A DNA stretch of 30,975 nucleotides from a virus. Made by a program: the position numbers and the translations under genes. Every line of letters starts with the position of its first letter. Within the stretch, counting starts at the first letter, position 1. A model generated the notes under the pieces. The model worked only from the letters and a program-made list of their open reading frames with translations, was not told the DNA's origin and made no database searches. Shown here piece by piece: positions 4,292 through 30,975 of this stretch. The stretch is from IMG/VR virus record IMGVR_UViG_3300046009_007993, positions 1 through 30,975 of that record; one strand, given 5' to 3'.

Positions 4292-5307
4292 TATAGTGTG
4301 TTATAGATTTGCAACAACAAACCTCGATCATAAATGTCACTTTCAATATTGGTAATTTGATCGGTGACTATTTGGTCCACACTTTCAAACACAATATCTC
4401 CAGGAGAGAGATCTTGTTCAAAGGCATTGTTCTTGTTCGGAATCAGTGCCATTTCACTGAGTTGATAATCTCTTATAAATGTTTCTTTGATAAAGTTGGC
4501 TTCTTCGTAGCTGATATCAATGTCTAGTTCCACACGTACATGCATCTTGGGTTTAAGTATACTTGGTGCATGATCGATTAAGTGTGCAAGCCCTAGCACA
4601 CGATAAGTTGGTTGATCTGGCCATGCATGATACTCTGGTTCTTTGCCCCATTCCAATATCATCATACCGCGCTCGTCGTCACCTGCGTCTGCAAAATTAT
4701 GTGGAAAACAATTTCCTATATAGGTTACGTTTTTCTTGGTTTGACGCTTGTGAAAATGACCTGTGAATACATGCTCAAAGCCCCCAAGATCATCTCTACG
4801 AATTGATCCGTGATCTGGCATTTCAACCATGGCATTCATTAGATAACCTGGCAATTCAAAATGCCCAAACAAATATTTGCTTTTAAGTTTTGCTAATTTT
4901 TTATGATCATCGTTTACCAACCATGGAGCAATAACGACATCACCACTGTGTAACCAATCATTACATATGACCACATTTGGCAGATAACGAGCCCACTCCA
5001 CACTCTGAACATCGCGGCGGTCGCGATAATATAGATCATGATTGCCGGGAATAAAGTACACACTAGAAAAGTTACTGCTGAGGTGCTCCAGTGCCCGGAG
5101 GCTATAGTTAAGAGTGACAATATTAATACTAGCCCGGTGATTGTGCCAATCTCCGAGAAATAACGCTGTTTCACACCCCTCCTCCTTTGCTTTTTGAGTG
5201 AACCATTTTATAAAATTCAAACAATCATCATTGTGGGCTTGACTATTGCTTTTCAAGCCAAAATGGATGTCTGTGCAAACTGCTGCTTTTCGAAATAGAT
5301 TAGTCAT
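4291..5307 (-). CDS. 47: Recombination endonuclease subunit gp47 (Mre11/SbcD-like)
   Basis: 338 residues, essentially the length of T4 gp47 (339). Calcineurin-like metallophosphoesterase forming the nuclease half of the gp46-gp47 complex. The metal-binding motifs appear in order: D13 and H15 in CTDIHFG; D53 in LGDWHNHR; GNHD at 88-91; GHFE with H148; and GHFH with H183 and H185. The five motifs match Mre11/SbcD phosphodiesterases, so the catalytic site looks intact. After the nuclease core the ~130 C-terminal residues are acidic and probably carry the Rad50-binding helices. No Shine-Dalgarno is visible before the ATG; a TATAAT hexamer lies only eight bases upstream (see the separate promoter entry). 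It follows gene 55 by 14 bases and precedes the 236-residue gene with a one-base overlap. Confidence 0.95.
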   Translation of the reverse strand: MTNLFRKAAVCTDIHFGLKSNSQAHNDDCLNFIKWFTQKAKEEGCETALFLGDWHNHRASINIVTLNYSLRALEHLSSNFSSVYFIPGNHDLYYRDRRDVQSVEWARYLPNVVICNDWLHSGDVVIAPWLVNDDHKKLAKLKSKYLFGHFELPGYLMNAMVEMPDHGSIRRDDLGGFEHVFTGHFHKRQTKKNVTYIGNCFPHNFADAGDDERGMMILEWGKEPEYHAWPDQPTYRVLGLAHLIDHAPSILKPKMHVRVELDIDISYEEANFIKETFIRDYQLSEMALIPNKNNAFEQDLSPGDIVFESVDQIVTDQITNIESDIYDRGLLLQIYNTL

Positions 5308-13989: not shown

Positions 13990-16900
13990 ATGGCTACTAC
14001 TCAAAGACAAACAGCTATTTTTGGTATTGAAGACTGGAAACAGATCTATCAAACCTATCGTGAAGCGGATTTTCAAAGTTATGATTTTGAAACATTACGC
14101 AAGAGTTTTATTGATTATCTGCGTCTTTACTATCCAGAAACTTTCAACGATTACGTAGAATCCAGTGAATTTATTGCACTGTTGGATGTAATGGCCTTCA
14201 TGGGCCAGGCGCTGGCTTTTAGAAACGATCTCAATACCAGAGAAAACTACATTGACACAGCAGAACGTAGAGACAGTGTGGTTAGGCTTGCAAACTTAGT
14301 AAGCTACACTGCCAAGCGCAATTTAACTGCTGAAGGGCAAATCAAAGTTGTAGCAGTTAGCACCACAGAAAATGTGTTTGATTATGCTGGTTTGAATTTA
14401 GCCAATCTAACCATTAACTGGAACGATCCGTCAAATCCGGACTGGCTTGAGCAATTCACAGCAATTATCAACGCATCGTTGGTATCCACACAAAGTGTTG
14501 GCCGCCCAGGCAATAGTAAGAACATACTTGGCGTGCTCACTGATGAATACACCATAAACCTAATTCCAGGATTTTTGCCCATTGTTCCATACAACGCCAC
14601 TGTTGATGGAGTAACCATGCCGTTTGAGCTTGTGAACTCAACCATGGCTAATCAAAACTATGTTTATGAGCCAAGTCCTAGAGTTGATCTTGGTTTCAAC
14701 ATAATTTATAAAAACGATCAGCTGGGATACGCCAGTGTAAACACAGGTTATTTCTTCTTGTTTAAACAGGGCACACTACAGGCTCAGGAATTTAATCTGC
14801 CAGAAAGAGTTGCAAACCGCACAGTTAATATCAACATAGAAGGCATCAACAATACTGACAGATGGTTGTACCAGCTGGACACAGTGGGCGATGTTAAACA
14901 AGAGTGGACCTATACAGAAAACGTCTACACCGCGGCAACAGCAGCAGCAGCATCAGCACCATTGTTTGTATTCAGCACAACAAGTCGTACTAATGATCAA
15001 ATTACATTGGTATTTGGTGATGGAGTGTTTGCAGAAATTCCAGTAGGAAGTTTTCGTTGCTATGTTAGAGCCAGCAATGGCTTAGAATATATTATCAATC
15101 CTGAAGAAATGAACAGTGTAACTGCAACCATGAGTTACACCAGCAGAATTGGTCGTACAGAAACTATTACCTTTACCTGCGCTTTACAGGAACCAGTGTC
15201 TAACAGTCAGGCTCGTGAAAGCATCACAGAGATAAAACAAAGAGCGCCTGCTGGTTACTACACTCAAAACCGCATGGTCAACGGTGAAGATTATAATCTG
15301 TTTCCGTTTACACAGTATTCCAGTATTGTAAAAAGCAAAGCAGTGGTACGCAGCAGCATAGGTACCAGTCGTTTTCTTGAATTAATTGATCCAACAGGCA
15401 AATATGCAAGCACCAATGTCTACGCCAGCGACGGTGCGTTGTACAGACAGAATGAACTGCCAAGTTTTAATTTTGATTGGGTCACTGTTAATGACATTGC
15501 CAACGTTATAAGCAGCAGTCTACAGCCTCTCATACAACAACCAGGACTGCTACAATTTTATTATCAAAACTATCCACGACCATCCTTGGCAGCGTTGGAT
15601 GTGAGTTGGGTACAAGTTACAGCACAAATAAATCAATGCTCAGGATATTTTATTTACAACAACACTGGACAAGTTGCACAACTAGGACCATATGCCAGTA
15701 ACTTTATGGAATACGTCCGTGTTGGTGCATTGATAAAATTTGTTCCGCCAGCAGGATACTACTTTGATCAATACAACAATTTAAAAGTTGGTGTACCTGT
15801 TGAAGACACAGACAAAACAGTGATCTGGGCAGCACCAAGCGTGATTATACTAGATGGTACAAACTTTGGCACTGGTGTTCTAGACAACGGGGTTGGTGCA
15901 GTGATTTTAGATTCATTTGTGCCAGACAATGCCATACCAGTACAGGTTATTCCCCTGTTCAAGACCAATTTAAACGTCACCGCAAACACAGTTGGCGAAA
16001 ATATTACCACAAACACAGTCACTGATCAAATTAGAGACAACATTAGACTGTACAGAAATTTTGGCTTAGGTTACAACAACCTTGGTCAATTCTGGTATGT
16101 GATTACCAGCACTAACCTGGACGTTGATGCAGAATTTAACATTGGTAATGCTCAGAGCACAGCAGGCACCGGCAATGATGCAAGTTGGTTGATACAGTTT
16201 ATCACCAATGGCACAACCTACACTGTAACCTCAAGACAACTAAATTATTATTTTGGTTCAGTGCTGCAAACAAGATTTTTCTTTAGAGGCGGAAGTGCAA
16301 TTTACGATCCTCGTACTGGCACTGTGCTTAAAGACTTTTGTAGAGTATTAAAATCAAATAGTCAGCCAGGTAACAATTCACCATTGGCCAGCGATATCAC
16401 AGTTACCATTGTTGGCCAACCAGTACAAAGCGATGGTGTGGTAGACGATTTTCAAGTTTCTGTGAGCTTCCAAGACAACGAACTCAATGGGTTGCCAGAT
16501 AATCCAGATTTCTTTACTGATATAGTTGCTGCCAACAGTTACGTGTTTTTAGAAAAAACAGTTGACTTTGATGGGCTAGAAAGATATCTACTGGTTGAAT
16601 CATCAAAGGTAAACTATCAGTTTCCTAATTTAATATCAATTGAATTAGTAAAAGAGCAGTATCTTCCAGGACAAATCTTTTATGCTTATCAAAGTTTAGA
16701 ATTTTATGAACTGTCAATTGATATTGCAACACAGACTAAAATTTTGACCTTGATCACTGATAACACTTTTATTGCAAGAACTGGTAGACCAGATCTAGCA
16801 TTCCAGTACAGACATAATGCACCATTGACATCAAGAATTGATCCCACAGCAACCAATATCATTGATGTTTATATTGTCACACAGGATTACTATACAACTT

Positions 16901-17427
16901 ATCAAGCTTGGTTAAAGGATACCACTGGATCTATTGGAGAGCCAACACCTCCCAACATTGATGAGCTCAATACCACATATCAAGCTCTTGGTAATTACAA
17001 GATGATCAGTGATCAATTGGTGTTGAACAGTGTGCAGTTTAAACCTTTGTTTGGTACAAAAGCATCAACAGACTTACGAGCCACCATCAAGGTAATTCCA
17101 GCAAAGGATTCAACCGCCAGCGAAAGTCAAATCAAGAACCTGGTTATCACAGCACTCAACGATTATTTTAATATTGACAATTGGAATTTTGGAGATACTT
17201 TCTACTTCAGTGAATTGTCAGCATATATCCACGCCAACATTGGCAGTGATGTAAGTTCGGTGGTTCTAGTCCCAGTCAACCCACAAAAGAGTTTTGGTGA
17301 TCTTTATGAAATAAGATCAGCAGCCAATGAAATCTTTGTTAATGCTGCAACTGTAAATGATGTTGAAGTGATTGCAGCACTCACAAGCACAAACTTGCGT
17401 ACAGCACCCGGTAGCGGAGTAATTTAA
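13990..17427 (+). CDS. 6: Baseplate wedge protein gp6, enlarged
   Basis: 1145 residues, against about 660 in T4. The N-terminus is classic gp6: DWKQIYQTYREADFQSYDFE (11-30), then YYPETFNDYVESSEFIALLD, LAFRNDLNTRENYIDTAERR and VVRLANLVSYTAKRN. The C-terminal ~120 residues (ITALNDYFNIDNWNFGDTFY, followed by LSAYIHANIGSDVSSVVLVP) also match gp6. The intervening ~900 residues are beta-rich and account for the extra length. Gp6 forms the dimeric ring that holds the baseplate wedges together and dilates on contraction; it belongs to the baseplate J-like group. AAGGTG lies four bases before the ATG. The stop overlaps the next start (TAATG). Confidence 0.9.
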   Translation: MATTQRQTAIFGIEDWKQIYQTYREADFQSYDFETLRKSFIDYLRLYYPETFNDYVESSEFIALLDVMAFMGQALAFRNDLNTRENYIDTAERRDSVVRLANLVSYTAKRNLTAEGQIKVVAVSTTENVFDYAGLNLANLTINWNDPSNPDWLEQFTAIINASLVSTQSVGRPGNSKNILGVLTDEYTINLIPGFLPIVPYNATVDGVTMPFELVNSTMANQNYVYEPSPRVDLGFNIIYKNDQLGYASVNTGYFFLFKQGTLQAQEFNLPERVANRTVNINIEGINNTDRWLYQLDTVGDVKQEWTYTENVYTAATAAAASAPLFVFSTTSRTNDQITLVFGDGVFAEIPVGSFRCYVRASNGLEYIINPEEMNSVTATMSYTSRIGRTETITFTCALQEPVSNSQARESITEIKQRAPAGYYTQNRMVNGEDYNLFPFTQYSSIVKSKAVVRSSIGTSRFLELIDPTGKYASTNVYASDGALYRQNELPSFNFDWVTVNDIANVISSSLQPLIQQPGLLQFYYQNYPRPSLAALDVSWVQVTAQINQCSGYFIYNNTGQVAQLGPYASNFMEYVRVGALIKFVPPAGYYFDQYNNLKVGVPVEDTDKTVIWAAPSVIILDGTNFGTGVLDNGVGAVILDSFVPDNAIPVQVIPLFKTNLNVTANTVGENITTNTVTDQIRDNIRLYRNFGLGYNNLGQFWYVITSTNLDVDAEFNIGNAQSTAGTGNDASWLIQFITNGTTYTVTSRQLNYYFGSVLQTRFFFRGGSAIYDPRTGTVLKDFCRVLKSNSQPGNNSPLASDITVTIVGQPVQSDGVVDDFQVSVSFQDNELNGLPDNPDFFTDIVAANSYVFLEKTVDFDGLERYLLVESSKVNYQFPNLISIELVKEQYLPGQIFYAYQSLEFYELSIDIATQTKILTLITDNTFIARTGRPDLAFQYRHNAPLTSRIDPTATNIIDVYIVTQDYYTTYQAWLKDTTGSIGEPTPPNIDELNTTYQALGNYKMISDQLVLNSVQFKPLFGTKASTDLRATIKVIPAKDSTASESQIKNLVITALNDYFNIDNWNFGDTFYFSELSAYIHANIGSDVSSVVLVPVNPQKSFGDLYEIRSAANEIFVNAATVNDVEVIAALTSTNLRTAPGSGVI

Positions 17428-20400
17428 TGGCATCAATAAGATCGGTAGACTTTCTTCCAGAAATATTTCAAACACCTACCAACAAGCAGTTTTTATCTGC
17501 TACCTTGGATCAACTTATTCAGGAACCTAACTATAGTAAAGTTCAAGGTTACATTGGTGGAAGAATAGGCCCAGGGGTAAATGCCAATGATTATTATGTT
17601 GTGGAACCAACCGCGGAAAGATCTAATTATCAATTAGAACCAGCTGTGGTTGTAACCGCAGGCGACAGTGATACCGCGGTTGATGCTATAACATATCCAG
17701 GAGTAATTGACACTCTCAATCTACAGGGATCTCCTACCGAACGAGCCAGCCCACTATTCAGCAGTGAATATTATGCATGGGATCCAATGATTGATTTGGA
17801 TAAGTTTGTAAATTTTGCAGAATATTACTGGGTACCCACAGGCACAGATCCTGTGCCGGTGTTTGCTAATGCATTGCCTATTCAAGCCGATATTCAAGTA
17901 ACACGCAATCAAACCAATTACACTTTTGATTATGTTGACGGTAACAATCCAACTATAACCTTGGTAAGAGGTGGCGAATATAATTTTGAGCTCACACAGA
18001 ATTTCAAGAGCACTGTGAGTTTTAGAGTCACAAATCGAGGCACCAGTGCCTACATCATTGATTATTTGCCTAATCCAACCTTGGAACTAATAAGAGGCAA
18101 CACATATGAATTTGTGTTAAATCTTGGATCTCCTCTTCCTTTTTTTATTAAAACACAACCAACCACTGGTACCACAAACTTGTTTTCAACAGGAGTGGTC
18201 AACAATGGAGCCTTTGAAGGTGTAATCACATTCACAGTGCCTTACAGTGCACCAGACACATTGTATTACATCAGTGAAAATCAAAGTAATATGCAAGGTG
18301 TGTTTAATATTGTTGACCCCACCCCAGGCACAGGACCAAGATTTTGGATTCAAGCTGCACCTGGGGTACAAGGTACCATGCCAGGATTGCCTAACATCAG
18401 CAGCAGAGAAGTCCTTGGTGTTACCAACAATGGCACAGATCTCGGCACGTTGACTTTTACAGTACCAACCAAGACTGCACAGAACTTTTATTATACACTG
18501 GATAGCATAGACAATGTTGATCTTGCAACAACTATGCCCTTTAACAAAATCAATGGCGCATATATAAATGAATTTTTAGACACATACGGCGGCATTGATG
18601 GCGTAGCAGATATTGTTAACAAAACGCTGGTTTTTCTACAAGATCCACCAATTAGAGATTTTGATGATGCCGAAGAGTATGGATGGATACAAACCACAGG
18701 CTACAGCCCTAACTTTGACGCATCTTTAGTTGAACCTGGTGATTACGATTTTCCAAACTTTAACACAACCGTACCTCTTTTACTTAAAAATCAAAGATTC
18801 GTGGTCTGGAGAATTGACATTGACACTGATGTATTTGGTGATCAGTACATTGTGTTAACAACACTAACACAGGTCAATGTCTATCAAAAGTTCACAATAT
18901 CATCTGGAATACAATACAGCAGCACACAATGGTTCAAAAATGACGAAGAAGTTTTTGAGCGAATCCCATTGCTTACCGCGGTACTGGATACTTTGTACTA
19001 CCAAGACGGTGCTGATCCTTCGATGGTTGGTGAAATCCGTTTGGTTGAGCCAGAAGATATTTCTACGCTGTACATTGAAGATATCATAGGCAAGCCCAAC
19101 TTCACCAGTGCCAATGGCGTGGTGTTCACCAACGGACTTTGTGTTGAATTTTTTGATCTAGTTGAACCCGCTTCCTATAAGCAAGGCACATGGTATGTTG
19201 AAGGTGTTGGCACGGCTATCAAGTTGCTGTCCACCAGTGACTTTGTTACTCCAGAGCTCTATGCAGGCACTGTGCCTGCTCCTTTTGATTTGTTTCCTTT
19301 TGATTCAACAAATTACGAGGTACAAGGCAATTCGCCTATTACCCAAGATTATATCACTATCAATCGAGCCAGTCCGGATAAAAATCCATGGTCTAGATAC
19401 AATAGATGGTTCCACAGAGAAGTAATAGTTGCAACTGGTCAATACAATAACCAACCAGCTATATTAGATCAAGTGTACCGCGCTAAACGGCCTATTATTG
19501 AATTTAGAGCTGGATTAAAACTTAACAAATTTGGTACCAACGGAATAGCCCCAATCAATGTTATTGACTTTGACATAGTTGATGCATTTAGTCAAGTGGC
19601 TGGGCAAACACAATATATTATAGATGGTTATCAATTGTTAGAGGGCTCAAGAGTTATTTTTGCCGGAGATAGAGATCCTCTTGTCAAGAATAAAGTATAC
19701 TCAGTGTCATTTATTATTCCAGACACACAGTTGCCGCTGATTCCGCAACCTGTAATTAAATTAAATGAAGTACTTGTTCCAACAGTTGATGATGTCACTG
19801 TTTGTCTTACAGGCATTACATTGCAGGGTACAAGTTTTTATTATGATGGTTCAAATTGGGTTAGAACTCAGGTCAAAAATGGTGTAAATCAAGGACCGTT
19901 GTTCAATGTATATGATCAAGATGGTATAAGCCTAGGCGATCACACCAGATATCCGAGCTCTAACTTTGAAGGTACAAAGATTTTTGGCTATGCCCAAGGC
20001 ACAGGCCCAGATGATCCGGTATTAAAGTTTCCGCTAAAATACCTAACCATAAGCAACGTAGGTGATATAGTATTTGATAATTTTTACTACGATGATACTT
20101 TTATCTACGTTCTAAACCGTAACAGTATCACTGAAATGGTCAGCACAGGTTTTGTAAGAGAATATTCTAACCAGGTTGATTTCACTAGACGGTTGGGTTG
20201 GCAAACAGCTAGACAGGCAAGTCAACAGTATCAACAATTTAGATTCATATACGATGGGTTGCCACTGCAACTTGACGTAAGAGTAAATGATCAAGTTCAG
20301 ATAGCAGGTCAGCCCACGGCTTTTCCTGTTCTAAAAGTTTTTGTTGGCAGTAAGTTTATTCCACCTGATCAATACACATATTCACGATCAAATAATACAA

Positions 20401-23400
20401 CTCAAATTCGTCTCAATAACGTTTATTTTGAGGGCGATAATATTGAAGTTTTGGTTTTAAGTGATCAAGTAAGCGCAGTTGGATTTTATCAGATTCCAAT
20501 AAATCTTGAGTTCAATCCTTTTAATGAAAACAGTCCTGAGTTCACGTTGGGTACTGTGCGAGGACATTACGAAACCATTGGTGAAAATTTATTGAATCTA
20601 GTTGGACCTATCAATGGGTCAAACAATTCAAGAGACTTGGGCAACATATTGATATATGGTACAAACATTGTACAACAAAGTTCACCTTTGAGTTTAGCAA
20701 GTTTCTTTTTAAGGAATCAAAGTTATGGTGTGTTTGAAAGTATCTATTTCAACAGCCAAGAGTATATTAAGTTCAAAAACAAACTACTTGATGCAGTTGC
20801 AAGCAATCATTACAACACTGACAAACCAGGTGAAATTCTCACTCAGGTAATGTCGCAAATAACACGTGGGCTGAATTCTGGAAGTCCATTTTATTGGTCA
20901 GACATGTTGCCATCTGGCAATATTTTTGAAACAGCGGTATACAACTTCAGCGTTATTTCTACACCGGTGTTTGATACTCAACAAGTTTATGATTACACAA
21001 GCAGTAACTATCGTGGACTCAATGTTTACGTAAATGATTTCTTACTCACTCGAGGATATGATTACGTTACCAACCCTGATGCCGCTAGTTTAACAATCAC
21101 TGCACCATTGGCAGTGGGTGATGTTATCACTATTCAGGAATTTGAGTCAACACTGGGAAATTTTGTACCCAATACGCCTACTAAACTAGGCATGTATCCT
21201 GCCTTCCGTCCTAGAATCTATTTAGATACTTCATACCAACAACCAACATTCATAATTGAAGGACATGACGGAAGCAAGACAAGAGCATTTGGTGACATTA
21301 GAGATCAGATTCTTTTAGAATTTGAAACAAGAATTTTCAACAATTTAAAAATTGTATCGCAATTACCAATTGACGTAGCTGATATAATTGCAGGCCAGTT
21401 TACCACAACAGATTTTTCAAATGTTGATGTGCAAAATATTCTAAATCAAGATTTCTTGAGTTATGTTGGGTGGAACAAATTGGATTACCAGACACAGGAT
21501 TATCAGTCTAACGATCCTTTTACCTGGAACTACAGTCAAGCCTCCAACCGTTTAACTGGAAAGCCTTTGCTTGGTGCTTGGCGAGGAATCTATCTGTTTA
21601 CATATGGCACAGTGACCCCAAATACCACGCCGTGGGAAATGCTAGGGTTCAGTCAAGAGCCATCGTGGTGGCAGTCAATATATGGACCGGCTCCGTATAC
21701 CTCAGGTAACATGGTGTTGTGGGATGATCTTGAAGCAGGAAGAATAGCAGAACCGGGAAATGATCGCATTGATCTTCAATATGCAAGACCAGGACTAAAA
21801 CAAATTATTCCTGCAGGCCCACAAGGTGAACTCTTACCGCCAATTGACAGCATAGTTGGCGCATATGATCCACAAGGTTTCAAAGGCGCCTGGACTACCA
21901 GCGATTATGGCCCTGTTGAATATTCCTGGAGAGTCAGCAGTGCATATCCTTTTGCGATCATGAGACTGTATGCTCTGTTGCGCCCTGCTCAGTTTTTCTC
22001 GCTAAACGCTGACAGAGATTTGTATGTTTACAATGATGAACTACAACAGTATCTATACAACAATAGATATCGCTTGTCAACTAAAACTCTGCAACTTTAT
22101 GGTAATGTTGAAGGACAGAGCAAAGCCAGCTATATCAACTGGATCATTGATTACAATACCTATGTCGGCAACCTTAAGTCAACTGAGAGATTAAAAGCAA
22201 GTTTGGTTAATCTTGACATTCGTCTGGCCTATAGATTAGCTGGGTTTTCAAACAAACAATATGTTCAACTGTTCCTTGAAAAACCCAGTCCAAACTCAGT
22301 GAACACTAGTTTACTGTTACCAGATGATAGTTACGATCTGTTGCTGTACAAAAATCAACCATTTGATGATGTAAACTACAGTTCAATAATGGTTCAGATT
22401 GTACCCAACGGGTATGCTGTGTTTGGCTATGGCATAACCAAACCATATTTCCCAATTCTTGTCAGCAGACCAATTGGCATCTTGCAAACCGTTAGTGCTG
22501 GTGGCATAAGCACACAAGTGCCTGCTGTGTACACAGATGAAGTAGTAAACATTCCATACGGCACAATTTTCAACAACATAGCCACTGTGGTGGATTTTAT
22601 TCTCAGCTATGGTAAACTACTTGAACGTCAAGGCATGAGCTTCACTGACACAGAAAATGGTTACATCTTAGACTGGAATCAGATGGCAGCTGAGTTTATG
22701 TATTGGAGTCAGCAGGGCTGGGCCGACGGCAGTGTGATTAATTTAAATCCCAGTGCAGTGAGTTTGTCTGTGACCAAACCCTTGGCCATAGTGGATGATC
22801 TTACCCAGCTGAACACAAACAATCAACCAAAAGATCAAAACGGTAACGTACTCACGATTAATAATTTGGTAATTGAACGATTAGAAAACACCTTTAAGAT
22901 GACCAGTCAGAATGAGCAAACTATCAGTTTTGCTCATCTGCGTTTCATTAATTACGAACAAATTATTGTATTGAAAAACTCAAGTCTCTTTGGTGACTTG
23001 CTTTATAATCCTGTCACAGGTGCTCGTCAGGTTAGAATTAGATTCAACGGGTATAAAACCAATGATTGGAACGGACAATTAAATGCCAAAGGATTTATAT
23101 TAAATCAAGACAACATTGTTGATTGGAGACCAAATGTCCGTTATACCAAAGGTCAGATTGTTAATTATAAAAATCAACTTTACGTAGCAAGATACATTGT
23201 ACAACCCAGTGTTGCATTTGACAACAATGATTGGATATCGTCTGATTATGATCAAGTGCAAAAAGGTCTGTTGCCTAACTTGCCAAACAAGAGTGATCAG
23301 TTGGCCAATAGCTATGATATCAACAATGCTAATTTAAACACAGACAGCGACTTGTTGAGTTATGGTTTGACTGGTTTTAGACCAAGACGATACATGGCCA

Positions 23401-26400
23401 GCTTGGATCTTGATGATGTTAGTCAACTCAATGTGTATAGACAGTTTATTGGTGATAAAGGAACAATTGCTGCGATTAGATTGTTGACCAACGCAAACTT
23501 TGGCAAGGAAGCAGCAGAGTATGAGATTTACGAAAACTGGGGGATTCTACAGGGAATCTACGGCGCTCAAGACAATTCAAAATATATTGATCTACGTTTA
23601 AATGCAGCTGATTTAACCAGTGACGCCAGCACCGTGGCCGTGGTTGATATCAATGAATTCAGTTTAGCAGATCAAAACATAGTTATAAATGATATTTTTA
23701 GCTCTAGCTACTTTGTGACCAGCAAAGACTTTTTGCCTACCAAAGACTTTGTTATCAATTCAAAAAGCTTGCCATGGGCAGGTTATGTAAACATCGATGA
23801 TGTTGATGCTGCTGTGTTTGATTTAATCAATCCACAAATTCTAAACCCTTTCTTTGATAATCTAGCAGTAGGAAGTAAGATATGGGTAGCAGCGGTTAAC
23901 CAATTTGAGTGGGACATTTATCGTTGCACACAAGTTGACTCAGAAATAGTCACAGCTCAGAGCAATTTGGACGGTACCTGGGTGTTGATTTGTAATCAAC
24001 AACACGGATTATCAAAAGGTGAAATCGTACTGATAAAACAGTTTGATGATCAAATCAATGGTACCTATAGAATTTTTTCAGTACCAGATCTTTACACATT
24101 TACCATTGAGCTTGAGTTAGCAGACAATCAAGCAACCACATTCAACGGTAATGGTTTGATGTTGAATCTACAAACCATGAGAGTTGCACAGCCAAGTGAT
24201 GCTGTTGACTTGTCTTACATTAATCAAATGGAGCCAGGTGCAAGCATATGGGTAGACAACAACGGCGAAGGCAAGTGGCAGGTATTAACCAAAGTTAATC
24301 AATTCAGTGAATTTACCACTGTGGCTCCTACTACCATTGAACCAAACACTAGATTTGCACAATCTTTGAGTCAAAGAAGTGATCATCTTGCAATGTTGGT
24401 TGGTAGACCTGATTTCCCATCTGACAAGGGATCAGTAATAAACTATCTTGAACAGATAGTGTCTGCCAATTACTTGCCAGGCGTAACGTTGAACATGCTC
24501 AACGTTGTTGGACTAGGCAACTATGGCAGCAGTGTAAGCATAGGTGGACAACTTTACGCAGTTGCTGGTGCTCCAAGCAGTGCAAACAATGTAGGCTATG
24601 CATCAATACTAAATTGGCAAGAAGGTGTCAGAGCTAGTTTTTATGAAACACAAGTTCTTTTAGCACTGGATCAACCAGGACCAGGAAAATTTGGCCACAG
24701 CGTTGTGATGAGCCAAGATGAAAGATGGGTATACATTGGTGCGCCAGAAGTCAATGCCGTTTACGTTTACGGTAAACAAGATATTCAAACACAAAGTGTA
24801 ACCTACACAGCAGCTCAAGGACAATTTAGATACAGCGCAGCATCACTACAGTTTGATTTTGACACACAACTTGCGGTGTTTGTAAACAATGTCGAACAAA
24901 TTTTCACCAATCAATGGTATCTTGACAGCACTGATGTGGTGTTTTATGCAGCGCCAGTGGCACAATCTACAGTGGTTATACGACGTAAAGAAACCACGGT
25001 ATTGGATTCAGAATGGTTCTTGAATCTTCCTGTGACTCAAACCACTGGATTTGGTATCAATGCTGTGTTTGATGTGGAAATAGTACGCGGACAGTATAGG
25101 CCAAAAATTGTAAATCCTGGTAGATTGTTTAGTATAGGCGAAGTTATAACCTACAAAGGCACATTGTTTGGTGGCCAATCTCCCCTCAATGATTTAAGAT
25201 TAACAGTCACTGACATTACATTTACTGGAGAAATTCTTGGTATCACTGTGGCAGGAAGTTTTATTCCAAGCTCTGGATTGCCATATCAATTCCCAATTGA
25301 TCAGTATCTGTTTGGAGTAACTGACATTGACAGTATGACTGTGTTTGTGAACAATGTGTTGCAAAGACCAAAACTTGATTATGAATTAGTCAATGCCGAC
25401 AGCAGCACGCCAGACAGCACAGGTCAAGATAAACTATTGGTGTTTATGAGTATTCCTCCGTTTGGAGCCAATATTGTGGTCACCGGAGGAACGCACTACA
25501 TTTTCAGTGCAAAAATAAGTCAACCAGGTCTGACTAGATTTGGTGAGTCTTTGTCCACGGACAGAGATGGTAGATCATTAATAGTTGGCGCACCTAATGT
25601 TGCTCAAGATTCTAACTTTGAGGTGGGTGAATCGTATTTTTATTCTAGAAATGTAGAAAAATTTGTTGTTACAAATACATCACAAGCCACTTATACAACC
25701 ACTGCACCGCTGGTGGCTCCCACAGTTGTAAAAATCAATGGTGTAGTAGCCACAAACAGCGAATTTTATTCTCCTGCACAATACACAGCAGGTGTAAACT
25801 CAGTGACATTCTCTGTGGCTTTGCAGGTGGGCGATTTAATCGAAGTTGAAACCAATCAAATGATTTTGACTCAAACTTTGGATGCAGATGCAGTATTAGA
25901 ATCGTCATCAATAAAAGAAAAATTACACTTTGGTCAGGCTGTGGGAATATGCTTGTCGGGCTGTAGTGCGTATATTGGATCTCCAGATTACAGTTATTTA
26001 GATTCAACTCAAGCAGGTTTGGTTTCAATATACGCAAATCAGTCAAAACTCTATGGGTTGATTCAAAGCAACAACGCTCCGACTGTGCTAACTGCTGGTT
26101 CAAAAATTAGAATCAACAATGTCCCTGTCACTGTGCCTGATGCACCCAACAACACAGTAGATGGTTTGGTTTCAGTTATTAATTCTGGCATAGTACCAAA
26201 CGTGATGTCGCAGAATGCCAGCGGTAAGTTGGTTATCATGGTTATTAACCAGAATTCTGCCACAAGGTTTAATAAACTCACAGTGCTGCCGGCATTTAAC
26301 AGTAATCTGTTTACCACACTGGGGTTTGACTGTTTTGTAGAAACACAAACACTGCAAAGTCCATATCCAGTTGATGGAGCCGGGTTTGGTTCAACTATTG

Positions 26401-29400
26401 CTGTGAGTAATCAACTTACTACACTAGTAATTGGAGCGCCAAGAGGCACAGCAGTTATACCAACTACATTTGACGATAATACAACCATTTTTGACTTTAG
26501 AAGTACCACTATAAGTGAATATGTTGCCAACAGTGGTGTTGTTTATGAGTTTGATTATTTGTCAGCTGCAAATGAATCAATACTGAATCCTGGAAAATTT
26601 ATTTTTGGACAACAAATATATTATTCGCAAAGTGGATCAAATGACCTGTTTGGCACTAGTTTAAGTTTGATAGATTCATATTTGCTAGTTGGTGCTCCTG
26701 GACAAGATTTAAGCGATAGCACAGCCAACGAAGGGCTGGTATCAGTGTTCAAGAATCAACAACGGTTGCCGGCATGGACTCCAACCAGCATGGAAAGACC
26801 TGTGGTTGATATTGAGCTAATCAACACTGCCAGCATGTTTGACAGATTGATTAGCACAGTGAATGTGTTCTTAGATTATTTTGATCCTTTGCAAGGCAAA
26901 GTATTAAGTGTCTGCCAGCGTAACCTTGATTACATAGGCGGTGTTGATCCTGCTAGTTACAACAATGGTGCAAATAATGTACTTGGCAATACTTGGTACG
27001 ATAACAAAGTTGGACAGGTCTGGTGGAATACCAGCACTATGCGATTTATTGATCCTAGGGCTGGTGACTTTATCTATGCCAACAAACGTTGGGGTCAGGT
27101 ATTCCCAGGCAGTGTTATAGACATTTACCAATGGATTCAAAGCACAGAACCACCAGCCTCATACACCGGCGAGGGCACTGTGTTTAGTACAACTGATTAC
27201 AGCTCAGTGGTTGTAGTGGGCAACTCAGGTGTATTAATAACTTATTATTATTTCTGGGTAAAAGATATTACCACTGTATACACTAATTCAGGAAAAACTT
27301 TGAGTGTTTACACAGTGGCTAGGTATCTAGAAGATCCCAAGAGCAGCGGGGTTCCTTACTTAATACCATTGGAATCTAACATTGTTGGTTTGACAAACTG
27401 TAGAGACTTTATTTCTGCATCTGACACAATATTACACATAGGATTTGATCAAGTCAAGAACGATGATGTCGTGCATTATGAATACCAGTTAATTGCTGAT
27501 GGTAGAGTCAACAGTAGATTAGCTGATAATTTGTACAACAAACTTGTAGATAGTTTATGTGGTATCAACGCCACTGGCAAACCAGTTCCGGATCCAAATC
27601 TATCTCCGGCAATGAGATATGGTGTATTGAATCGTCCAAGACAAAGCATGTTTGTTGACAGATACTCGGCGTTGAATAATCTAGTTGACTTTACAAACAA
27701 TGTTATGAGTCAGTTTGCATTGGCAGAACTCAATCTGTCGTTTAGTTTACTAAATGCCAAGGAACCTGAGCCTTCGGCAACCAGTGGGCAGTATGACATG
27801 AAAGTTGCTGACCTAGAACAATTGAGTTGGCAAAACATTTATATTGTTCCTCTTGGATACAAGTATTTGGTCAGCTTTGATGCTGCCAATGATGGTTTGT
27901 GGACAATTTATGAAGTACAAAGTGCTGGTATTGAATTACGCGAACTGGTGTTGGCACAAGTTCAAAGTTTTGATACTACCAAGTATTGGAGCTATGTGAA
28001 CTGGTATGCAGCAGATTACAATCCATCAACGCCAGTGCAATACGAAGTGCCAATCTATGCAGATCTGTCTACAATACAAAATCCATTTATTGGAGAAACT
28101 GCAAGAGTAAATGACAACGGGCAAGGCAGCTGGGAAATCTATAGATTTGATCTAAACCAAATCTGGGAAAGAGTAGCGGTTCAGGGCGGAACTATTGCCA
28201 TTGACGATACAATTTATGATTATAGTCTAGGACGTTGGGGCTTTGACAGCGAAGTTTTTGATGCTCAATACTTTGATGACAGCCCAGAAACAGAAACAAG
28301 ATATATTGTAAATGCAATCTTTGATGAAATTTTCATTGATGAACTGCTGATCTATCAAAATCAACTTGTTATTTTGTTGTTTAATTTTATATTAAGCGAA
28401 CAACAGTCGCCAGACTGGATAATGAAAACCAGTTTGATTGATGTACAACACAAAATACGTCAGCTTATTCCTTATGCAACGTATAGACGTGATAACCAAG
28501 ATTTTGTGTTACAGTATATTCAAGAAGTCAAACCATATCATGTGCAAATTAAACAATTTGATTTGCAGTACAGTGGTGAAGACTTTTTTACCGGTGATGT
28601 CACTGATTTTGATTTGCCTGCAAAGTTCTTTACAGCCATAGTACCACCTAGTTTCCAAAGTCCAATACTGAGTATTGACAATGCTTTTGCGTCAAGTCCA
28701 GCAGCTACTCCACCTGATGCTGAAATATGGCAAGAATTTCCTTATAACCAGTGGTTTAGTAATTACTTGCTTGAACTGGATGTTATAGAAATATCCAATG
28801 CTGGCAGCGGTTACACATCAGCACCAACTGTGGCAATTTCTGGACTGGCAACACGTTTAGGACAGGCCACAGCTCAAATTGATAGTCTAGGACGAGTGGT
28901 TAGTATCACAATCACTGACCCAGGCGAGGGTTACTACTACACTCCAACTGTGACCATATCAGGCGGCAACGGATCAGGTGCTCAAGCTGTGCCACGCATG
29001 ATAAACGATCTTGTACGCACATTTGATGTGACTATGAAGTTTGATAGAACAGAGTATAATCAAACTTTTGTGCCTTGGGAGCCAAACGTTACATATGACA
29101 ATGGTACTTTGGTCAGTTACGCAGATAGAATTTGGCAAGCAGCAAGTCCGGACAGCACCGGTGTTGACACCGCTGAATTCAACATCGAAGATTGGATTGA
29201 AGTTCCTATTGCGCTACTAAGTGGTGTAGACAGAACCATGGGATATTATATCCCGGGTATAAATCAGCCAGGTAAAGAGCTGCCATTATTAATAACCGGT
29301 GTTGATTATCCTGGTGTGCAAGTTAAAAACCTACCATTCAGTGCCAATACTGGGTTTGACAGATCACCGTTTGATACCTATGTGTATGACAACTATCAAA

Positions 29401-30975
29401 TAAGTCCAGAAGGTGTGCCTACTTACAGTGATGATTTGCTAGATGTTATTCTAGAGAGTCAATATCTTGACAGTTTCCTTGGCACTAGACCGTCAGATAT
29501 CATCACAGATGGTGGAGCCTATGTTGACACATATTCAAGTCATGCGCCAGAAGAGCTGGTTCCAGGCAGCGAGTTTGATACCTTGGACTTCCGTGTCTTC
29601 ACTAGACCAGGCGCAGATTGGACTGGACTTGGACACGGGTTTCAAATTGAAAGTGTGCGCTATGAATTTGATTCGGCGGACCCAGGATTTAGTTTTCAAG
29701 GTTTGGTAAGATTCCCCACAGTGATACAGGTTACCAACGTAACCAATTATTTGGACTTAAACTTAAACCTAGATTATTCTGTTGATTGGACCAATCAAAC
29801 TGTAACAATATTCAACAATGTATCCAACGGCGATACAGTTATGATTCGCGTGTTTGAACTAGGTGGCGGTAATCAACTCAATCGTGGAATCTATACTGGC
29901 CAGGAAGCAGACGCAGACATACTGGTTCCTGTGCAGTTCAGCGAAATTCAAGACCTAGTGGTTTTCATCAACGGAGAATACTTACCAGAAATCAATGATG
30001 GTTCTTCATTGAACTATACCTATGCAGCAGTTGGAACACGCAATACCATTATTCGTTTCAACGCAATCTTGGCTGCTGATGATTTTGTAAACATCACTGT
30101 ACAAGGTGTAACTCCTATCACACCTAACATGCAGTTACCTACTGTGCATACCTGGAGTGATCCGCAATCACAAATCTTTACAATCACAAATGCTGCAATT
30201 TTAACTTATAATTTAGAAAACAGCATGCAGGGTATGAATCAGGATATGTTGATTGTTACTCACAACGGCAAACGTTTGCGACCAAGTGAAACCATTGAGC
30301 ATTATGCTGACGGCAGTATTTCGTATGAACTGCCTACTCGCGGTGGATATAGTCAGGGTTTGATATCTGATAATGATATAAGAGTTTATTTGAACAATGT
30401 TTTACAAGAACAAAACACTGATTATATAATTCCTCCATGGGATGGTAGCACTTTACGAACCGTTGAATTTGTAAACAATCCAAGTCTTGGTGAGAGAGTG
30501 GTGATTGCAGTAAGCACAAGAGCTCAGTATACAGTGGTTGCCAATCAAATCACATTCAGATCTGGAATAGGGTTTGTAATACAGAACGGCGACATTATTA
30601 ACATAACCTCATGGAACGATACATCCGAACAGTTCTTGTTAACTCTAGTGTGGCAAGGTCCAGGATCAAGTGGTAGTATTACATCTGTTGAAGGATTTGA
30701 TACTGTGCCGTTTGACATAGGCACTGTGGTCAATGGTCCAGGCACATACGATTACAGCACAGGTACTCTAGTGGAAATCAACAACTTCAGTACCACAAGA
30801 ATACCACCACAATCGCCAGAAAGAATGTGGGTATACTACAACGGAAATAGATTGATTTTTGGTGATGGCTTTGGCACTGAAACCATTGATGGCATTGTGT
30901 ACATAACACTACCATTTGTGATTAGTTCAACAGATGTTGTTTCTGCTACTTTGTGTACTCAAAAGGTGGTTCCAA
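17427..30975 (+). CDS. Giant mosaic virion structural protein in the gp7 position, 3' end beyond window
   Basis: An uninterrupted frame of 4516 codons runs off the right edge; I checked the frame at several points along it. GGAG (17416-17419) precedes ATG 17427, which overlaps the gene 6 stop. The N-terminus (SVDFLPEIFQTPTNKQFLSA, then VVEPTAERSNYQLEP and FVNFAEYYWVP) is shared with very large structural proteins of cyanophages as I recall them. Later landmarks: cupredoxin-like segments (150-370), NPWSRYNRWFHREVI (about 650), YTKGQIVNYKNQLYVA (about 1905), seven FG-GAP motifs (2310-3110), KVGQVWWNTSTMRFIDPRAG (about 3195), QYIQEVKPYHVQIKQF (about 3695), GxGY repeats (about 3793 and 3832) and tail-fibre-type repeats to the end. 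No signal peptide is seen. Position after gp6 suggests gp7 or a gp7-fibre fusion; that is an inference. It is presumably a peripheral baseplate or host-recognition component. Confidence 0.8.
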   Translation, partial: MASIRSVDFLPEIFQTPTNKQFLSATLDQLIQEPNYSKVQGYIGGRIGPGVNANDYYVVEPTAERSNYQLEPAVVVTAGDSDTAVDAITYPGVIDTLNLQGSPTERASPLFSSEYYAWDPMIDLDKFVNFAEYYWVPTGTDPVPVFANALPIQADIQVTRNQTNYTFDYVDGNNPTITLVRGGEYNFELTQNFKSTVSFRVTNRGTSAYIIDYLPNPTLELIRGNTYEFVLNLGSPLPFFIKTQPTTGTTNLFSTGVVNNGAFEGVITFTVPYSAPDTLYYISENQSNMQGVFNIVDPTPGTGPRFWIQAAPGVQGTMPGLPNISSREVLGVTNNGTDLGTLTFTVPTKTAQNFYYTLDSIDNVDLATTMPFNKINGAYINEFLDTYGGIDGVADIVNKTLVFLQDPPIRDFDDAEEYGWIQTTGYSPNFDASLVEPGDYDFPNFNTTVPLLLKNQRFVVWRIDIDTDVFGDQYIVLTTLTQVNVYQKFTISSGIQYSSTQWFKNDEEVFERIPLLTAVLDTLYYQDGADPSMVGEIRLVEPEDISTLYIEDIIGKPNFTSANGVVFTNGLCVEFFDLVEPASYKQGTWYVEGVGTAIKLLSTSDFVTPELYAGTVPAPFDLFPFDSTNYEVQGNSPITQDYITINRASPDKNPWSRYNRWFHREVIVATGQYNNQPAILDQVYRAKRPIIEFRAGLKLNKFGTNGIAPINVIDFDIVDAFSQVAGQTQYIIDGYQLLEGSRVIFAGDRDPLVKNKVYSVSFIIPDTQLPLIPQPVIKLNEVLVPTVDDVTVCLTGITLQGTSFYYDGSNWVRTQVKNGVNQGPLFNVYDQDGISLGDHTRYPSSNFEGTKIFGYAQGTGPDDPVLKFPLKYLTISNVGDIVFDNFYYDDTFIYVLNRNSITEMVSTGFVREYSNQVDFTRRLGWQTARQASQQYQQFRFIYDGLPLQLDVRVNDQVQIAGQPTAFPVLKVFVGSKFIPPDQYTYSRSNNTTQIRLNNVYFEGDNIEVLVLSDQVSAVGFYQIPINLEFNPFNENSPEFTLGTVRGHYETIGENLLNLVGPINGSNNSRDLGNILIYGTNIVQQSSPLSLASFFLRNQSYGVFESIYFNSQEYIKFKNKLLDAVASNHYNTDKPGEILTQVMSQITRGLNSGSPFYWSDMLPSGNIFETAVYNFSVISTPVFDTQQVYDYTSSNYRGLNVYVNDFLLTRGYDYVTNPDAASLTITAPLAVGDVITIQEFESTLGNFVPNTPTKLGMYPAFRPRIYLDTSYQQPTFIIEGHDGSKTRAFGDIRDQILLEFETRIFNNLKIVSQLPIDVADIIAGQFTTTDFSNVDVQNILNQDFLSYVGWNKLDYQTQDYQSNDPFTWNYSQASNRLTGKPLLGAWRGIYLFTYGTVTPNTTPWEMLGFSQEPSWWQSIYGPAPYTSGNMVLWDDLEAGRIAEPGNDRIDLQYARPGLKQIIPAGPQGELLPPIDSIVGAYDPQGFKGAWTTSDYGPVEYSWRVSSAYPFAIMRLYALLRPAQFFSLNADRDLYVYNDELQQYLYNNRYRLSTKTLQLYGNVEGQSKASYINWIIDYNTYVGNLKSTERLKASLVNLDIRLAYRLAGFSNKQYVQLFLEKPSPNSVNTSLLLPDDSYDLLLYKNQPFDDVNYSSIMVQIVPNGYAVFGYGITKPYFPILVSRPIGILQTVSAGGISTQVPAVYTDEVVNIPYGTIFNNIATVVDFILSYGKLLERQGMSFTDTENGYILDWNQMAAEFMYWSQQGWADGSVINLNPSAVSLSVTKPLAIVDDLTQLNTNNQPKDQNGNVLTINNLVIERLENTFKMTSQNEQTISFAHLRFINYEQIIVLKNSSLFGDLLYNPVTGARQVRIRFNGYKTNDWNGQLNAKGFILNQDNIVDWRPNVRYTKGQIVNYKNQLYVARYIVQPSVAFDNNDWISSDYDQVQKGLLPNLPNKSDQLANSYDINNANLNTDSDLLSYGLTGFRPRRYMASLDLDDVSQLNVYRQFIGDKGTIAAIRLLTNANFGKEAAEYEIYENWGILQGIYGAQDNSKYIDLRLNAADLTSDASTVAVVDINEFSLADQNIVINDIFSSSYFVTSKDFLPTKDFVINSKSLPWAGYVNIDDVDAAVFDLINPQILNPFFDNLAVGSKIWVAAVNQFEWDIYRCTQVDSEIVTAQSNLDGTWVLICNQQHGLSKGEIVLIKQFDDQINGTYRIFSVPDLYTFTIELELADNQATTFNGNGLMLNLQTMRVAQPSDAVDLSYINQMEPGASIWVDNNGEGKWQVLTKVNQFSEFTTVAPTTIEPNTRFAQSLSQRSDHLAMLVGRPDFPSDKGSVINYLEQIVSANYLPGVTLNMLNVVGLGNYGSSVSIGGQLYAVAGAPSSANNVGYASILNWQEGVRASFYETQVLLALDQPGPGKFGHSVVMSQDERWVYIGAPEVNAVYVYGKQDIQTQSVTYTAAQGQFRYSAASLQFDFDTQLAVFVNNVEQIFTNQWYLDSTDVVFYAAPVAQSTVVIRRKETTVLDSEWFLNLPVTQTTGFGINAVFDVEIVRGQYRPKIVNPGRLFSIGEVITYKGTLFGGQSPLNDLRLTVTDITFTGEILGITVAGSFIPSSGLPYQFPIDQYLFGVTDIDSMTVFVNNVLQRPKLDYELVNADSSTPDSTGQDKLLVFMSIPPFGANIVVTGGTHYIFSAKISQPGLTRFGESLSTDRDGRSLIVGAPNVAQDSNFEVGESYFYSRNVEKFVVTNTSQATYTTTAPLVAPTVVKINGVVATNSEFYSPAQYTAGVNSVTFSVALQVGDLIEVETNQMILTQTLDADAVLESSSIKEKLHFGQAVGICLSGCSAYIGSPDYSYLDSTQAGLVSIYANQSKLYGLIQSNNAPTVLTAGSKIRINNVPVTVPDAPNNTVDGLVSVINSGIVPNVMSQNASGKLVIMVINQNSATRFNKLTVLPAFNSNLFTTLGFDCFVETQTLQSPYPVDGAGFGSTIAVSNQLTTLVIGAPRGTAVIPTTFDDNTTIFDFRSTTISEYVANSGVVYEFDYLSAANESILNPGKFIFGQQIYYSQSGSNDLFGTSLSLIDSYLLVGAPGQDLSDSTANEGLVSVFKNQQRLPAWTPTSMERPVVDIELINTASMFDRLISTVNVFLDYFDPLQGKVLSVCQRNLDYIGGVDPASYNNGANNVLGNTWYDNKVGQVWWNTSTMRFIDPRAGDFIYANKRWGQVFPGSVIDIYQWIQSTEPPASYTGEGTVFSTTDYSSVVVVGNSGVLITYYYFWVKDITTVYTNSGKTLSVYTVARYLEDPKSSGVPYLIPLESNIVGLTNCRDFISASDTILHIGFDQVKNDDVVHYEYQLIADGRVNSRLADNLYNKLVDSLCGINATGKPVPDPNLSPAMRYGVLNRPRQSMFVDRYSALNNLVDFTNNVMSQFALAELNLSFSLLNAKEPEPSATSGQYDMKVADLEQLSWQNIYIVPLGYKYLVSFDAANDGLWTIYEVQSAGIELRELVLAQVQSFDTTKYWSYVNWYAADYNPSTPVQYEVPIYADLSTIQNPFIGETARVNDNGQGSWEIYRFDLNQIWERVAVQGGTIAIDDTIYDYSLGRWGFDSEVFDAQYFDDSPETETRYIVNAIFDEIFIDELLIYQNQLVILLFNFILSEQQSPDWIMKTSLIDVQHKIRQLIPYATYRRDNQDFVLQYIQEVKPYHVQIKQFDLQYSGEDFFTGDVTDFDLPAKFFTAIVPPSFQSPILSIDNAFASSPAATPPDAEIWQEFPYNQWFSNYLLELDVIEISNAGSGYTSAPTVAISGLATRLGQATAQIDSLGRVVSITITDPGEGYYYTPTVTISGGNGSGAQAVPRMINDLVRTFDVTMKFDRTEYNQTFVPWEPNVTYDNGTLVSYADRIWQAASPDSTGVDTAEFNIEDWIEVPIALLSGVDRTMGYYIPGINQPGKELPLLITGVDYPGVQVKNLPFSANTGFDRSPFDTYVYDNYQISPEGVPTYSDDLLDVILESQYLDSFLGTRPSDIITDGGAYVDTYSSHAPEELVPGSEFDTLDFRVFTRPGADWTGLGHGFQIESVRYEFDSADPGFSFQGLVRFPTVIQVTNVTNYLDLNLNLDYSVDWTNQTVTIFNNVSNGDTVMIRVFELGGGNQLNRGIYTGQEADADILVPVQFSEIQDLVVFINGEYLPEINDGSSLNYTYAAVGTRNTIIRFNAILAADDFVNITVQGVTPITPNMQLPTVHTWSDPQSQIFTITNAAILTYNLENSMQGMNQDMLIVTHNGKRLRPSETIEHYADGSISYELPTRGGYSQGLISDNDIRVYLNNVLQEQNTDYIIPPWDGSTLRTVEFVNNPSLGERVVIAVSTRAQYTVVANQITFRSGIGFVIQNGDIINITSWNDTSEQFLLTLVWQGPGSSGSITSVEGFDTVPFDIGTVVNGPGTYDYSTGTLVEINNFSTTRIPPQSPERMWVYYNGNRLIFGDGFGTETIDGIVYITLPFVISSTDVVSATLCTQKVVP
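18073..18315 (+). other. Cupredoxin-like segment lacking copper ligands (inside giant gene)
   Basis: Residues about 216-296 read NPTLELIRGNTYEFVLN, FFIKTQPTTGTTNLFSTGV, GVITFTVPYSAPDTLYYI and SENQSNMQGVFNI. The order resembles small beta-sandwich modules of the plastocyanin type, in which the last loop normally reads like YYxCxxHxxM. Here Cys and His are absent and only the Met remains. A partial second copy follows (GVTNNGTDLGTLTFTVPTKT and on). A structural rather than redox role is likely. Confidence 0.5.
24354..26760 (+). repeat. Seven FG-GAP-type beta-propeller motifs (inside giant gene)
   Basis: Seven F/Y-[GA]-x-S/A-h ... hhhGxP motifs start at residues about 2310 (RFAQSLSQ...VGRPD), 2366 (YGSSVSIG...AGAPS), 2422 (FGHSVVMS...IGAPE), 2705 (FGESLSTD...VGAPN), 2835 (FGQAVGIC...IGSPD), 2987 (FGSTIAVS...IGAPR) and 3075 (FGTSLSLI...VGAPG). 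Most are followed by a G-x-V-x-h-[YF] strand. This is the integrin-alpha FG-GAP blade signature, and seven is the blade number of that propeller. About 280 residues with fibre-type repeats lie between motifs 3 and 4. Confidence 0.75.
28795..28990 (+). repeat. Two GxGYxxxPTVxISG repeats (inside giant gene)
   Basis: Two copies, ISNAGSGYTSAPTVAISG (about 3790) and ITDPGEGYYYTPTVTISGG (about 3830), are joined by GRVVSITI. The second ends in GNGSGAQA. Such tandem Gly-Tyr/Pro-Thr-Val units form short beta arcs and are common in phage tail appendages. Confidence 0.7.
29955..30975 (+). repeat. Cluster of tail-fibre-type repeats (end of giant gene)
   Basis: A unit of the form hhhNGxxL...Y...., a strand, then ..P..GDxhxh recurs: VVFINGEYLPEI (about 4177), IVTHNGKRLRPSE (about 4277), RVYLNNVLQEQNTDY (about 4320) and WVYYNGNRLIFGDG (about 4469). 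Related copies sit earlier in the same protein: VFVGSKFIPPDQYTY (about 971), VYVNDFLLTRGYDYV (about 1200), VFVNNVEQIF (about 2488), VFVNNVLQRPKLDYE (about 2639) and VKINGVVATNSEFY (about 2768). Confidence 0.6.

Follow-up and report, generated by a model that had tools for sequence, protein, structure and literature searches.

A predicted seven-bladed FG-GAP propeller in a giant protein of a jumbo-phage baseplate gene cluster

What is a propeller of the kind known from integrin alpha heads doing inside a giant protein encoded among phage baseplate genes? The question is raised by IMGVR_UViG_3300046009_007993, a virus record from IMG/VR (linear, 30,975 bases) that was analyzed over its full length (hereafter, the window). 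On its plus strand, the open reading frame (ORF) at 17427..30975 encodes a protein of at least 4,516 amino acids (aa) that is still open at the window end (hereafter, the giant). An earlier note, made from the sequence alone, had claimed seven FG..GAP motifs in order in this protein and an integrin-type propeller in a phage tail protein. Residues ~2290-3123 of the giant indeed comprise seven FG-GAP blades in order, for which a seven-bladed, integrin-alpha-like propeller is predicted; this propeller occupies a slot of variable content and could serve as an adhesion head on the baseplate.

Seven blades and the predicted fold

The motif pairs start at residues 2309 (RFAQ...LVGRP), 2366 (YGSS...VAGAP), 2422 (FGHS...YIGAP), 2705 (FGES...IVGAP), 2835 (FGQA...YIGSP), 2987 (FGST...VIGAP) and 3075 (FGTS...LVGAP), with a start-to-start spacing of 12-15 residues between the two parts in all seven. 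A loose motif pattern, composed after the motifs had been seen, matched the whole protein nine times, at these seven sites and at two overlapping ones (aa 1663/1666), whereas 2,000 shuffles averaged 0.096 matches and never gave more than 2, which rules out chance motifs and confirms the series claimed in the earlier note. The Pfam profile FG-GAP_2 (PF14312) scores 52.3 bits on aa 2261-3189 (cut-off 23), with blade 7 as the only single stretch that passes, and matches all 41 non-redundant sequences (the window and 40 IMG/VR relatives; E <= 0.05) in which the seven blade positions could be aligned. Judged from its sequence, the window propeller is an FG-GAP_2 member. The profile search envisaged in the earlier note thus succeeded with this family and not with the FG-GAP profile PF01839, which is not listed for the window and was matched by one of the 41 sequences at E <= 0.05. 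For the alignment, 80 of 114 relatives were kept, from which three short frames (L023, L024, L080) and five partial rows (L028, L036, L038, L085, L087) were then removed; the redundancy cut of A2 was 85%.

Individual blades differ in how readily they are recognized. With hidden Markov models (HMMs) built while leaving one blade out, blades 2-7 of the window score 14.1-25.3 bits against controls of at most 8.7, and blade 1 scores 0.2 bits, under its control maximum of 3.2, whereas blade 1 of the other 40 rows scores above the control. Held-out rows beat the control in 11 of 41 cases for blade 2, 31 for blade 5, 40 for blade 6, 39 for blade 7, and in all 41 for blades 3 and 4. The first two motifs had been singled out as the most diverged; this holds for blade 1, which in the window is too diverged for recognition alone and is assigned via alignment with relatives where it is recognizable, and not for blade 2 of the window, which scores well.

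AlphaFold2, run on aa 2261-3189 with the 41-row alignment, predicts a seven-bladed propeller resembling that of integrin alpha (predicted local distance difference test, pLDDT, 80.5; predicted template modeling score, pTM, 0.83). The strand order was read from DSSP, and strands were assigned, as seven sets of four, around the motifs. In VIA-align, a re-examination of the best 1,000 chains from Foldseek, integrin entries account for all 50 matches listed for the window model, the best with Z 39.2 and 2.6 A over 354 residues. Template modeling (TM) scores from plain Foldseek were low for the insert-rich window model (query-normalized <=0.15 and target-normalized <=0.35 among the 50 matches listed), with a cyanophage A4 portal-tail chain as the best row, so that the clear fold result comes from VIA-align and from a compact relative. 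In this distant relative, L138, the slot lacks large inserts, and its compact propeller lies at L138:8480-9985; residues 221-703 of its model (pLDDT 84.3, pTM 0.85) superpose on integrin heads (VIA-align Z 37.2, 361 residues), and in Foldseek integrins have the best E-value (3.7e-15) and reach a target TM of 0.64. Judging by superposition on closed integrin heads, the ring is predicted to be closed. A non-propeller fold, or closure blocked by insertion, which the earlier note had named as grounds for abandoning the propeller, was not found, and an insertion-broken ring was rejected: the inserts lie in loops, and L138 has the same predicted fold.

On the plus strand, the map starts with an N-terminal strand at 24294..24323, a putative closing strand that aligns from integrin residue 1 (VIA-align model range from 30 versus chain from 1). 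Blades 1 and 2 extend over 24351..24491 and 24519..24659, respectively. Each of the following three blades is encoded in two parts, strands 1-3 and strand 4, namely, 24687..24779 and 25494..25520 for blade 3, 25536..25667 and 25836..25883 for blade 4, and 25926..26039, with a CxxxC motif, and 26334..26357 for blade 5. Blade 6 (26382..26618) has a 2-3 loop of 33 aa, and blade 7 (26646..26795), which is the FG-GAP_2 stretch of the window, would be closed by either the C-terminal or the N-terminal strand. Blades were assigned from motifs, DSSP strands and the alignment, and the separate fourth strands of blades 3-5 from DSSP strands and the alignment. The parts of the split blades are separated by inserts, located by the alignment and strands, of 238 aa (24780..25493) in blade 3, 56 aa (25668..25835) in blade 4 and 98 aa (26040..26333) in blade 5, each in the 3-4 loop. 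Hence, instead of the single insertion that had been assumed, there are three large inserts and the longer loop in blade 6.

The resemblance to the integrin alpha head includes the seven FG-GAP blades, the superposition and the presence of domains built into propeller loops. Unlike that head, the propeller has no DxDxDG-type Ca2+ loops between FG and GAP, in any of the seven blades of any of the 41 sequences (strict and relaxed pattern). The I domain of integrins sits between blades 2 and 3; the inserts here instead occupy 3-4 loops, in blades 3-5. Furthermore, the propeller has no convincing sequence match to solved structures: profile A1 gave only galectin-10 (E 0.5-0.91), and the window region as well as R1, the conserved segment behind the slot, had no match at E <= 1. 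Because DxDxDG-type loops are lacking and PF01839 is not listed, we do not class the propeller as an integrin head; 'integrin-type' holds for the predicted fold and the blade motif and fails for the Ca2+ loops.

Similar predicted folds occur among viral proteins in BFVD. Ranked first is a protein of uncultured Caudovirales (A0A6J5L8L4, segment 3, E 1.2e-28, 16% identity), and others include A0A6J5S3H5, named 'FG-GAP repeat', giant-virus proteins and the Atu_ph07 'hemagglutinin' (3.7e-10), with identities of 10-16%; these four are not designated baseplate proteins. The match to FG-GAP_2 proteins in general is above the family cut-off and, unlike those, the window domain is embedded in a giant baseplate-cluster protein.

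The giant protein and its module slot

The giant matches PHROG 10938 ('virion structural protein', E 9.7e-301), and its core is colinear with the giants of phages RaK2, Paride, Atu_ph07 and Phosso on either side of the propeller, not inside it. Ahead of the slot lies a conserved core (23106..23645, plus strand, own HMM) that starts with a CBM_5_12-like stretch (best at aa 1900-1921, 31 bits versus a cut-off of 26.2) and is followed by the PRE segment (23649..24296, plus strand), which precedes the propeller and was delineated with our own HMM and by reading the sequences, with AGYVN..DV and two WV...W.V stretches. Behind the slot, the HMM-defined segment R1 (26769..27626, plus strand) is present in all nine cultured-phage giants examined. 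The giants of RaK2-like phages (RaK2 ORF070, PBECO4 gp538, Paride_0436, Atu_ph07 AUZ94962) share the gene position and the colinear core with the window and differ from it in a slot without a detected propeller. Flank to flank, as measured with HMMs, the slot is 203 aa in RaK2, 204 in PBECO4, 203 in XaC1, 201 in Hallingskeid, 266 in Vibrio phage 2.275.O, 316 in Paride, 505 in SCTP-2, 1,529 in Atu_ph07, 1,522 in Phosso and 1,041 in the window. The Atu_ph07 and Phosso slots hold other, glycine-rich repeats, not blades, and with our blade HMM no blade was detected in the slot of any of the nine cultured giants that share both flanks. For the SCTP-2 slot, a suspected concanavalin-like domain received no support from Pfam.

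Environmental relatives present a different composition. A scan of IMG/VR with R1 gave at least 572 relatives, of which the best 80, near-copies included, were taken as a sample and not as a census; 74 slots were measurable, including 53 with 5-7 blade hits (27 of these compact, 651-724 aa), 16 with other content and 5 that were short. The blade HMM was refined on the same slots that it counted; shuffled slots gave one hit. Among the 50 sequences of A5 (80% redundancy cut, without three slots longer than 2,500 aa, L138 added despite its 82% identity to one member), 36 match FG-GAP_2 at E <= 0.01. Four slots of ~2,500-2,950 aa (L104, L105, L136, L160) have no detected blade, and in that of L104 Pfam finds nothing at E <= 0.01.

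In one lineage, the slot (L166:6015-8258) contains a YHYH domain (E 3.9e-29), preceded by a second WV...W.VY stretch. YHYH is a predicted metal-dependent hydrolase which, according to the passages on this domain in a jumbo-phage survey, is found fused to tail or base plate proteins (Iyer et al. 2021, PMC7824862). Its occurrence in the same slot could be cited in favor of a slot module that acts as an enzyme or processes carbohydrates instead of binding; for the window propeller, which shows no Pfam match to a catalytic family at the limits used, this explanation appears very unlikely.

The history of the slot can be read from a tree of R1 (131 rows; the midpoint root is for drawing only). All 97 propeller rows fall inside one group of 99 rows (support 100/99), and the two remaining rows of this group are L166, with its YHYH domain, and the identical L168, placed by a fork with support 100/74 and a long branch. 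L102, L150 and L151 (no blades) and L108 (partial) were not counted as propeller rows; L122 and L123 do have blades. The simplest reading of this tree would be one gain of the propeller and at least one replacement, by YHYH. In a search for cultured phages that carry this propeller, tblastn with the window propeller against 50,697 phage records returned ten cyanophage records, matching only the insert part (E >= 0.06), and with L011, 14 records (11 Pelagibacter, 2 Salmonella and 1 Shigella phages; E >= 0.3). The 40 listed of the 56 phage records that match the giant do so only behind the propeller or at its extreme end. One profile scan of genome contigs with A1, a search for cellular copies, gave 45 stretches that fit a pattern, none of them confirmed. 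Because related viruses have nothing or quite different domains at that spot, the slot module is probably a swappable binding head.

Host adhesion or docking within the virion

The reading that we take as most likely, with a confidence approaching but not reaching an even call, is that the propeller is an adhesion head on the baseplate that binds a partner on the host surface; both surface display and binding are what we infer. In this scheme, the giant would be a large protein of the virion whose gene lies with those of the baseplate wedge, and its module slot between the conserved cores PRE and R1 is here filled by the FG-GAP_2 propeller with domains in the 3-4 loops of blades 3-5. The propeller would be displayed at the baseplate and would bind a glycan or a surface protein of the host during adsorption, and the content of the slot varies over evolution. 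We favor adhesion because the module is optional, appears to have been replaced at least once and, in aa 2301-2900, is less conserved than the core: identical residues per 100, counted between the window and five relatives with gaps taken as differences, number 7-39 in that region versus 39-67 in aa 1001-2100.

This divergence of much of the propeller, together with the ability of RaK2-type giants to manage without one, could also be expected of a passive spacer or decoration with no specific ligand. Such a role seems improbable, given that the 40 relatives keep all seven blades in position at 32-43% identity to the window, and a conserved ring would be superfluous for a spacer.

The first step of the adhesion scheme draws on proteins of related phages. 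Virions of phAPEC6 contain gp244, a baseplate wedge protein of 131.18 kDa, and gp245, a hypothetical protein of 381.88 kDa detected with 17 unique peptides (Table 1 of PMC7247149). The computed masses of the PBECO4 counterparts are 131.17 kDa for the wedge protein and 383.13 kDa for the giant; because the masses agree, gp245 is very probably the phAPEC6 giant, and this homologue is thus very probably a virion protein. In phage CBB, the listed structural protein CBB_236, neighbor of the wedge protein CBB_237 (PMC5259590), is probably another giant of the same type. Presence of the window giant in virions would follow by homology only.

Propellers on phage baseplates are already known. As precedents for the adhesion reading, propellers are proposed, not proven, as receptor-binding parts of phi11 Gp45 and phiKZ gp131 (PMC4901313). 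The latter (gp131C, PDB 4GBF) is by that description similar to the window propeller, with seven blades, in a jumbo phage and at the baseplate periphery, receptor binding being speculated, and differs in belonging to another phage group. Among the 50 VIA-align matches listed for each of the two models, 4GBF does not appear, an absence that carries no weight either way. Gp45 is alike in that a receptor-binding protein of the baseplate contains a propeller, for which a sugar site was modeled, and unlike in having five blades and being a separate trimeric protein of a siphophage (PMC4901313). CBB_550, CBB_552 and CBB_554 are propeller proteins of a RaK2-like jumbo phage, with CBB_552 in the virion; unlike the window module, they are Kelch rather than FG-GAP and separate proteins (PMC5259590). 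Among the open-licence papers listed in literature searches, none on a phage-tail propeller of the FG-GAP type was seen. In its main text, the jumbo-phage survey PMC7824862 does not mention propeller, FG-GAP or integrin, PMC6102473 has no mention of FG-GAP, hemagglutinin or integrin, and the giant protein was not found in PMC10253068 and PMC3622015 under the names tried.

Several observations weigh against the adhesion reading. Blades 6-7 (aa 2901-3100), with 38-57 identical residues per 100, are at about the core level, and aa 401-500 and 4201-4400 of the giant have diverged as much as the propeller. A hypervariable propeller face was looked for by entropy and not found: values for the loops (1.16-1.56 bits) are only moderately higher than those for the strands (0.92-1.25), and no face stands out. 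Presence in the virion is carried over from homologues without the propeller, because no cultured phage examined has a propeller in its giant. Homology to gp7, gp8 and gp10 of T4 was not detected in comparisons with single T4 sequences only (hhalign of A4, with 12 giants, against the single gp7 sequence gave a probability of 0.2%). As to the fold, G-beta chains (target TM 0.72, E 2.1e-9) and WD40 propellers also match the compact L138 model, with weaker E-values than integrins, and because G-beta chains reach the higher target TM there, kinship with integrins is unproven by fold alone. Finally, retention of the propeller through a large clade fits a structural role, too.

Such a role is at the heart of the main rival explanation, a docking platform within the virion, in which the propeller would hold tail fibres, spikes or other baseplate proteins, with the inserts as docking sites. 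We consider this a serious, if doubtful, alternative. The propeller is retained throughout the 99-row group with one replacement, and all three large inserts follow strand 3, that is, consecutive blades 3-5 each carry an insert in the equivalent loop. The insert in blade 3 is made up of beta domains, and domains of this type also appear in other parts of the giant; the insert part of our propeller HMM also matches aa 926-1288 and 4069-4511, so this insert may be an internal copy. The Pfam domain Phage_T7_tail, the N-terminal domain of the T7 tail fibre, was detected within the aligned region of 7 of the 41 sequences (best E 1.2e-7), in L090 by position inside the blade 3 insert, below the cut-off there. 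In T7, this domain is the end that attaches the fibre to the tail. However, the T7 profile has no match in the window itself, and insert-mediated docking cannot be general because the 27 compact propeller slots, about half of the 53, leave scant room for inserts.

Adhesion remains the reading that we prefer for the window propeller. A broader picture, which we offer tentatively and with more doubt, is that baseplates in a large jumbo-phage group could have a dedicated cassette site within one giant protein, where host-recognition heads of unrelated folds (integrin-like propeller, YHYH, glycine-rich repeats or none) would be exchanged; the head of the window clade would carry further domains, for adhesion or docking, that grew out of its loops in convergence with I-domain integrins. 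The finding provides a candidate function for part of a very large phage protein that, in the records examined, bears no annotation beyond 'structural protein', 'virion structural protein' or 'hypothetical protein', and marks a place in the giant where jumbo phages may exchange host-recognition parts. If binding is true, the same propeller frame would serve cell adhesion in phages and animals.

Gene neighbourhood and other FG-GAP proteins

On the plus strand, the window encodes, in this order, gp53-like, OB/gp5-like, gp25-like and gp6-like proteins and the giant; the gp53 and gp6 matches are under the Pfam cut-offs. The putative baseplate wedge protein at 13570..13944 matches GPW_gp25 (E 4.3e-11). 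The gp6-like wedge protein at 13990..17427 has a weak, below-cut-off match to Gp6-like_1st (E 0.0082), and its position is that of the annotated wedge proteins of Paride, Phosso and PBECO4; the giant ORF sits directly behind it, as annotated also in these three phages, overlapping it by one base (17427). Genes on the minus strand include those for a radical-SAM protein, an SMC-type ATPase and a calcineurin-like phosphoesterase. Paride is annotated with the same order, SbcC, SbcD, sigma factor, wedge subunit, hub/lysozyme, two wedge subunits and the giant; in Phosso and PBECO4, the giant is immediately preceded by two proteins, a small one of gp25 type and a large wedge protein; and the RaK2 record names gp46, gp47, gp55 and gp5, the remainder being mostly hypothetical. 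Because gene order and annotation match those of Paride, RaK2, Phosso and PBECO4, and given the PHROG 10938 match, the window is a fragment of a T4-like phage distantly related to the RaK2 jumbo-phage group; records that carry related giants reach 364 kb. These comparisons support assignment of the giant ORF to a T4-like contractile-tail baseplate cluster of the jumbo-phage kind, in agreement with the tail protein proposed in the earlier note.

FG-GAP domains also occur elsewhere in these phages. In Phosso, two adjoining giant hypothetical proteins of ~3,160 and ~3,690 aa (PV764938 48338-68978; L096:4339-24979) hold most of the 66 FG-GAP_2 matches of the genome and probably consist of many tandem propellers; the baseplate giant of Phosso is without a detected blade. 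Separate FG-GAP proteins are the 'hemagglutinin' of Atu_ph07 (MF403008 243018-244199; L097:8019-9200) and a 925-aa frame in the L165 record (37280-38098), so phages without a slot propeller may carry such proteins. Paride and RaK2 have no FG-GAP_2 matches. In four long slot-propeller records (L022, L070, L015 and L159, of which L022 and L015 look alike), FG-GAP_2 matches are confined to the giant.

The window giant, which is over the Pfam cut-off for CBM_5_12, contains two stretches of this kind, the one at 23106-23645 and another at about 29058-29228; the family was also matched, below its cut-off, in the giants of Atu_ph07, Phosso and Paride. A glycine-rich stretch, GSGYTSAPTVAISG, lies at 28785-29003 of the window, and stretches of the same kind are repeated in the slots of Atu_ph07, Phosso, L101, L124 and L148.

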